This document shows, in pieces, positions 57,249 to 58,006 of a stretch of DNA of 64,000 nt (positions are counted from its first letter, which is position 1; every line of letters begins with the position of its first letter). Under the pieces are notes generated by a model, which searched no databases, was not told the origin of the DNA, and was given only the letters and a program-made list of their open reading frames with translations. Origin of the DNA: Sulfurimonas sp. HSL3-1 (GTDB lineage: Bacteria; Campylobacterota; Campylobacteria; Campylobacterales; Sulfurimonadaceae); NCBI RefSeq assembly GCF_039645995.1, contig NZ_CP147920.1:2356001-2420000 (forward strand), in the 5' to 3' direction. The position numbers were made by a program, and so were the translations under genes.

Positions 57249-57264
57249 ATGGATGGTTTAAAAA

Positions 57265-57297
57265 CATCCCGGTAAAAGGAGGGGGGAAACCGGGATG
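57265..57297 (+). repeat. Perfect 9-bp inverted repeat with purine loop (AAGGAGG)
   Basis: CATCCCGGT (57265-57273) and ACCGGGATG (57289-57297) flank a 15-nt loop AAAAGGAGGGGGGAA. The hairpin begins 16 bp after the antiporter stop but has no T run, so it is not a standard terminator. The loop shows a GGA motif of the kind bound by CsrA. Confidence 0.6.
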
Positions 57298-57326
57298 CGC
57301 TTCATAGGTATATAAGGAGTGTATAA

Positions 57327-57359
57327 ATGAAACTCAATGACTGCTACTGTTGTCGTTGA
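57327..57359 (+). CDS. Possible 10-residue Cys-rich mini-ORF (MKLNDCYCCR)
   Basis: ATG at 57327, ten codons, TGA at 57357-57359. AAGGAG lies at 57314-57319, 7 nt upstream, as good a ribosome site as any in the window. Three of the last five residues are cysteine, followed by Arg and stop. It lies between the hairpin at 57265 and the RDD gene promoter in an otherwise empty 248-bp gap. A leader/attenuation peptide or a tiny free peptide is possible; too short for certainty. Confidence 0.4.
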   Translation: MKLNDCYCCR

Positions 57360-57484
57360 GACGGTGGAAGTATAGGGCAGTAGAGGTAAACTATCCGTAA
57401 ATATACAGGTGTATACAAATCTTTTATGTTATGTTTAAGTATAACAAATAGTTTTACTTCGCCTTTGTCCGCCACCCCTTTCGC

Positions 57485-57490
57485 TATAAT
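57485..57490 (+). promoter_or_regulatory. -10 box 6 bp before the RDD gene ATG (TATAAT)
   Basis: TATAAT, GCCGCC, ATG. Same geometry as at kdsD; the RDD message is probably leaderless. Confidence 0.5.
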
Positions 57491-57496
57491 GCCGCC

Positions 57497-58006
57497 ATGC
57501 GATGGCGAGAGATTAAACACACCAAACCGAAACGTCAGCCGGAGAACACTCCGAAAGTGACCTATGCCGACTTCAAGTCACGGGCCCTGGCCTTTATCAC
57601 GGACATCTTCATGATCGGCATTCCCATCACCCTCATCATTATGATCGCCTTTGGACATGACCAGATGATGAACAGCGCGGGCGGAACGGATGTGCTGATG
57701 AACCCGGCCGAGGCGAAGCAGCATGCTCCCAACCCCTACGCCTCGATCACGCAGATGCTGCTCTATGCCGTCACCTTTGTCCTCTTCTGGCACAAAAGCG
57801 GGCAGACGCCGGGCAAAAAGATGATGCAGATCCGCGTCGTCGATGCACGTACCTTCCAGACAGCCTCCTGGAGCCGCCTGCTCCTGCGTTTCGTCGGCTA
57901 CTTTCTCTCTGCTCTCACCCTGGTCGGTTTCTTCACCGGGCTGCTGCGCCGCGACGGCAGGGCCCTGCACGACCTGCTCAGCGGTACCGCCGTCATCCGT
58001 GCCTGA
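57497..58006 (+). CDS. RDD family membrane protein
   Basis: 169 residues with the RDD fold: ADFKSRALAFITDIFMIGIPITLIIMI (the Arg-Asp-Asp-like opening, here RALAFITD), a second helix YAVTFVLFWHKSGQTPGKKMMQIRVVDA and LLLRFVGYFLSALTLVGFFTGLLRRDGRALHDLLSGTAV-type ending. Family members are membrane proteins of mostly unknown role, some acting as ion antiporters. The following MFS gene begins right after its stop (TGAATG). Confidence 0.87.
   Translation: MRWREIKHTKPKRQPENTPKVTYADFKSRALAFITDIFMIGIPITLIIMIAFGHDQMMNSAGGTDVLMNPAEAKQHAPNPYASITQMLLYAVTFVLFWHKSGQTPGKKMMQIRVVDARTFQTASWSRLLLRFVGYFLSALTLVGFFTGLLRRDGRALHDLLSGTAVIRA

Follow-up and report, generated by a model that had tools for sequence, protein, structure and literature searches.

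A conserved minus-strand gene for a predicted small RNA with an anti-Shine-Dalgarno linker in Sulfurimonadaceae

A 248-bp gap between genes (57249-57496) in the window, that is, the whole 64,000-nucleotide stretch of Sulfurimonas sp. HSL3-1 DNA analysed here, very probably holds on its minus strand a gene for a trans-acting small RNA (sRNA) of about 105 nt, with a promoter of OmpR/PhoB-type layout, an anti-Shine-Dalgarno linker and a terminator of its own. A sequence-only reading of the same gap had pointed to the plus strand, where it saw a hairpin, a Shine-Dalgarno (SD) site and a Cys-rich mini-ORF, and guessed at a small regulatory RNA with a peptide. The general guess of a regulatory RNA is supported by our results, but the strand is the opposite one and the peptide is not supported. 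The parts of the predicted gene are listed below; the start near 57362 is predicted from the spacing to the −10 box and the 3′ end from the T tract.

57386..57401, minus strand: direct repeat TTTAC-GGATAG-TTTAC, a predicted OmpR/PhoB-type response-regulator site, 11 nt before the −10 box
57369..57374, minus strand: −10 box TATACT (TATAAT in many homologs; TATAAT positions 73-100% conserved in 95 homologs)
57256..57362, minus strand: predicted sRNA gene, about 105 nt, from covariance models; homologs in 127/228 family genomes
57333..57360, minus strand: 5′ hairpin, arms 57360-57352 and 57341-57333; 6/9 pairs changed on both sides
57308..57332, minus strand: single-stranded linker UUUCAUUUAUACACUCCUUAUAUAC with the anti-SD core ACUCCUU; ACTCC in 88/95 homologs
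57265..57297, minus strand: terminator hairpin with pyrimidine loop UUCCCCCCUCCUUUU; 9/9 pairs changed on both sides in 24 homologs
57260..57264, minus strand: UUUUU terminator tail, from the T count after the stem

BLASTN searches in relatives and the resulting alignments revealed that not only the genus but also other genera of the family have kept the whole unit. A covariance model built from eight minus-strand sequences (R1) matched further genera, and a second model built from 24 sequences (R2) was applied to the family at a threshold of E ≤ 0.01; the window element scores 128 bits with R1 and 114.5 bits with R2. R2 matched 127 of 228 family genomes, a lower bound given the strict filters, including 82 of the 139 good-quality ones and 11 of 18 genera, and all positive genomes except one carry a single copy. 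In a survey of 397 sampled Campylobacterota genomes, R2 gave 31 matches, all inside Sulfurimonadaceae and none outside it. A locus in another family (L052), with a TTTAC repeat, TATAAT and a CTCAAGC hairpin, had been a lead at the R1 stage and was rejected, as R2 matched nothing outside the family. At this locus (G271:C16:115333-115442), a response regulator gene follows about 100 nt after the TTTAC-N6-TTTAC repeat, TATAAT and hairpin, and this gene may possibly be autoregulated through a similar box. None of the 4227 Rfam families matched above its gathering score in the window, the gap (where even E 10 gave nothing) or 10 homologous loci, and we found no published description of a matching Sulfurimonas sRNA in the open-access literature, itself weak evidence of absence. 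The sRNA therefore appears to be undescribed and a member of no Rfam family.

The fold is conserved as well. None of 200 dinucleotide shuffles folds as well as the gap region (z −3.6). In the 24-sequence alignment, 87.4% of cells pair versus 69.1 in shuffles, 15 of 18 pairs have changed on both sides, double-change cells number 90 versus 28.5, and the covariation score of 0.536 (0.199 in shuffles) falls steeply once partners are shifted by one column, although the absolute values lean towards structure since this alignment was fitted to it. The first MAFFT alignment of eight sequences already gave 13 double-change cells versus 6.1 in shuffles. An example is the compensatory change of the terminator stem from CATCCCGGT/ACCGGGATG to CGACTCGGT/ACCCGAGTCG in G002. 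Of the two plus-strand elements expected to persist in relatives, the hairpin is kept and covaries, but the mini-ORF is not kept.

Folding energy does not discriminate between the strands, and in the window's genus the 5′ hairpin even pairs slightly better on the plus strand, with U-G where the minus strand has C-A. We assign the gene to the minus strand because the −10 box, the repeat at fixed spacing in homologs and the T tail fit that strand only. The remark that the hairpin lacks a T tail is true of the plus strand, while on the minus strand the same hairpin is followed by TTTTT; across homologs, the 8 nt after the stem contain on average 4.4 T on the minus strand versus 2.0 after the last plus-strand hairpin. 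No plus-strand promoter was recognised, and no conserved plus-strand protein was found among the 95 homologs. Conserved promoter elements and an intrinsic terminator of its own, together with no conserved ORF, are what mark an intergenic trans-acting sRNA, and all of these features were observed for the predicted gene. Comparison of the homologs thus leaves the conserved gene, its minus strand and its fold well supported.

All sequence details of the original plus-strand description hold. The two stem arms, CATCCCGGT (57265-57273) and ACCGGGATG (57289-57297), enclose a 15-nt loop AAAAGGAGGGGGGAA, AAGGAG occupies 57314-57319, and the 10-codon mini-ORF ATGAAACTCAATGACTGCTACTGTTGTCGTTGA (MKLNDCYCCR) spans 57327-57359. 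Each is the complement of a minus-strand part: AAGGAG of CUCCUU in the linker UUUCAUUUAUACACUCCUUAUA, the loop GGAGGGGGG of the terminator loop CCCCCCUCC, and the mini-ORF of the 5′ hairpin. What had been overlooked is the second stem, over the mini-ORF (57333-57341 with 57352-57360), the minus-strand TTTTT after the first hairpin, and the minus-strand −10 box and direct repeat that complete a gene there.

One rival reading places a regulatory RNA on the plus strand, whose Cys-rich leader peptide would be translated and would sense cysteine or charged tRNA-Cys. SD-ATG spacing is indeed good in the window's genus and other genera. However, an ATG within 13 nt after the plus-strand GGAGT is present in only 45 of 95 homologs (lost in 50), the frames range from 2 to 24 codons and encode unrelated peptides, and just 15 contain at least two Cys. 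In divergent homologs the stem across the mini-ORF persists, whereas the peptide has changed (MKLNDCYMSLRQ, MELKRLHLVN, MKTQQLLLIAEILKL, MKNSTISIIEVIKL). A conserved Cys-rich peptide therefore lacks support, as does the Cys/tRNA-Cys attenuator. Moreover, the genes that follow are RDD or others rather than cysteine genes, the plus-strand downstream gene varies (in L009 a tsaD-like gene lies on the opposite strand), and the plus strand shows no recognisable promoter; we regard this explanation as extremely improbable. A type I toxin-antitoxin locus, in which the minus-strand RNA would be a cis-encoded antisense RNA over the start of a small plus-strand toxin ORF, would agree with the RNA covering the plus-strand SD-ATG and with the occurrence of AapA/IsoA systems in Helicobacter. 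Yet there is no conserved small ORF, on which ground we rejected this candidate; the ATG is missing in many homologs, and the element is widespread in single copy, unlike typical toxin-antitoxin loci. Its probability is very low.

The two GGA-containing segments had also been read as CsrA-type sites. The plus-strand GGA motifs turn out to be the complement of UCC in the sRNA, and on the transcribed strand the terminator loop contains GGA in 1 of 95 homologs. Although the RNA resembles CsrB/RsmY-type CsrA sponges in being small, with hairpins and a linker, those need GGA in their loops; a CsrA sponge was rejected, the GGA motifs being on the untranscribed strand.

The genomic surroundings bear on whether the RNA acts in cis or in trans. 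Neighbouring genes were named by Pfam scans in some cases and from translated sequences in the rest. In the 95 homologs, the upstream neighbour is a divergent RDD gene in 33 and a chemotaxis-like gene in 35; downstream there is a B12-type radical SAM gene in 45, with KefB-type or other convergent genes elsewhere. In the window, the terminator lies 12 nt before the stop codon of the converging kefB. Since the downstream gene varies, action in trans is the best reading. A leader of the RDD gene was rejected, as the downstream gene is inconstant. A cis-acting leader or attenuator of the minus-strand downstream gene could be imagined for the 45 homologs in which the B12-binding radical SAM gene lies downstream in the same orientation, and a cis role is possible there. 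As a general explanation it is very unlikely, given that in the window and many homologs the gene that comes next (kefB and others) is convergent and that the RNA has its own terminator. One might also see nothing more than a kefB terminator beside conserved promoter elements that belong to the RDD gene and have no connection with it, considering that the hairpin comes directly after kefB and that in 33 of 95 homologs the RDD gene and the sRNA diverge. This is hardly credible: the plus strand has no T run, the element is kept where neither kefB nor RDD adjoins, and the linker and 5′ hairpin are conserved equally with the terminator. The separate promoter proposed for the RDD gene is nonetheless plausible, with a plus-strand TATAAT 6 nt before the ATG (57485-57497), a layout shared with the sister species that suggests a leaderless RDD mRNA.

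Promoters activated by OmpR/PhoB-family response regulators typically combine a direct repeat with a −10 box. The predicted sRNA gene has this layout, namely two direct repeats whose period is 11 bp, placed about 11 nt ahead of the −10 box, which suggests control by an OmpR/PhoB-type response regulator. The repeat was part of neither model, R1 nor R2. An exact TTTAC-N6-TT[TA] is carried by 68 of 95 homologs; in 65 of the 68 it begins 23-24 nt ahead of the model start. It is present in 47 of the 71 homologs outside the R2 building set. Most of the remaining homologs have, by eye, [TA]TTAC-N6-GTTTAC in the same place. Neither the reversed pattern nor a window 200 nt upstream gave a single hit in the 95 homologs.

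The repeat plus −10 pattern occurs seven times in the genome of the window versus once for the control; the seven sites include soxX and a nearby DsrE-like gene, and six recur in three sister species. Sites with this pattern upstream of moxR-, ruvA- and bamA-like genes (G000:C1:248857, 824564 and 1866925; L068, L072 and L073) are kept in three sister species. Most soxX promoters in the 27 family genomes examined have the box TTTACAnnnnTTTTAC about 10 nt before the −10 box, adjoining genes for an OmpR-type regulator and a histidine kinase (L075:14339-16795 = G000:C1:736338-738794; L076-L102), and TTTACAnnnnTTTTAC is likely the box of this Sox regulator. The repeat of the sRNA is slightly unlike the sox box. 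In addition, G011, G050 and G054 keep the sRNA and its repeat, yet their best match to the Sox regulator has 38-39% identity versus 56-67% in most sox genomes. Lacking a close ortholog there, that regulator cannot serve everywhere, and it was rejected as the universal regulator of the sRNA. A more speculative and rather unlikely reading is that this family-wide anti-SD sRNA of sulfur-oxidising Campylobacterota is wired to the sox-adjacent two-component system, the likely target of which, soxX, bears the same TTTAC-N6-TTTAC box, and that thiosulfate or redox state would thereby also control translation of envelope genes through the RNA.

The exposed parts of the RNA hint at its mode of action. 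Besides the ACTCC core in 88 of 95 homologs, CUCC is found in the linker of 93. Runs of CCC are seen in 62 terminator loops and 48 first loops, at least two of these three motifs (linker core and two loop runs) are present in 63, and C exceeds G in the terminator loop of 85. These exposed pyrimidine motifs match SD sequences, and the complement of the linker reads, in the window's genus, as a full SD plus AUGAAA. From this anatomy, an OmpR/PhoB-family response regulator bound to TTTAC-N6-TTTAC would bring RNA polymerase to the −10 box next to it, and transcription would stop at the C-rich-loop terminator before the converging kefB. Together with one or two C-rich loops, the RNA would expose the ACUCCUU linker, complementary to the SD and, in the window's genus, to the following AUG as well. 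By pairing with G-rich or SD regions of target mRNAs it would block ribosome binding, so that it probably switches off target messages through pairing at their ribosome-binding sites.

Target predictions are weak. The start region TAGGAGTGTATATATGAAA of a gene for a 108-aa secreted protein is a near-complete complement of the linker over SD and AUG and is kept in four sister species; a TonB-dependent receptor shows the same near-complete complementarity, in one species. These remain leads only, because SD-AUG complementarity is generic and duplex energies lie at background level: the best candidate reaches −46.6 kcal/mol versus up to −44.9 for the window background, and duplex energy separated no candidate from ordinary genes. 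The 108-aa protein (L194; G000:C1:438872) is Leu/Gly-rich, has no Pfam match and is preceded by an 11-bp-period repeat, TTAAC-N6-TTAAA.

The sulfur and hydrogen oxidisers of this family are ecologically important, and at least half of their genomes carry this core sRNA gene once. The RNA would offer a test case for regulation by sRNAs in this phylum, in whose studied members Hfq and ProQ are lacking, and its promoter predicts a specific class of regulator. It also illustrates how an anti-SD sRNA, read on the wrong strand, can imitate an SD and a mini-ORF.

Several known RNAs invite comparison. RsaE/RoxS of Firmicutes target the SD with C-rich single-stranded motifs and are expressed under a two-component response regulator. 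The predicted sRNA is similar in its C-rich single-stranded motifs directed towards the SD and in its predicted response-regulator control, but it belongs to another phylum and has no Rfam match. Within Campylobacterota, it resembles NikS and CncR1 of H. pylori, the latter under the orphan response regulator HsrA (PMC8322730), as a single-copy sRNA from a phylum in which the model species has neither Hfq nor ProQ; Rfam showed no similarity, and promoters and targets differ. RepG (HPnc5490) of Helicobacter pylori is an intergenic sRNA whose C/U-rich terminator loop pairs with a G-rich mRNA leader (PMC8295292), a likeness that is one of analogy only. RepG homologs are reported from gastric Helicobacter only, beside hp1043 (between hp1043/hp1044), whereas the predicted sRNA is flanked by RDD, KefB-type, chemotaxis-like and B12-type radical SAM genes. 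A relation to RepG was found neither in sequence nor in Rfam, and model matches are confined to Sulfurimonadaceae. What stays invariant in the predicted sRNA is the ACUCCUU linker, and its promoter has a TTTAC direct repeat. While a member of neither by location, distribution or Rfam, the sRNA may, by analogy, work like RepG or RsaE/RoxS.
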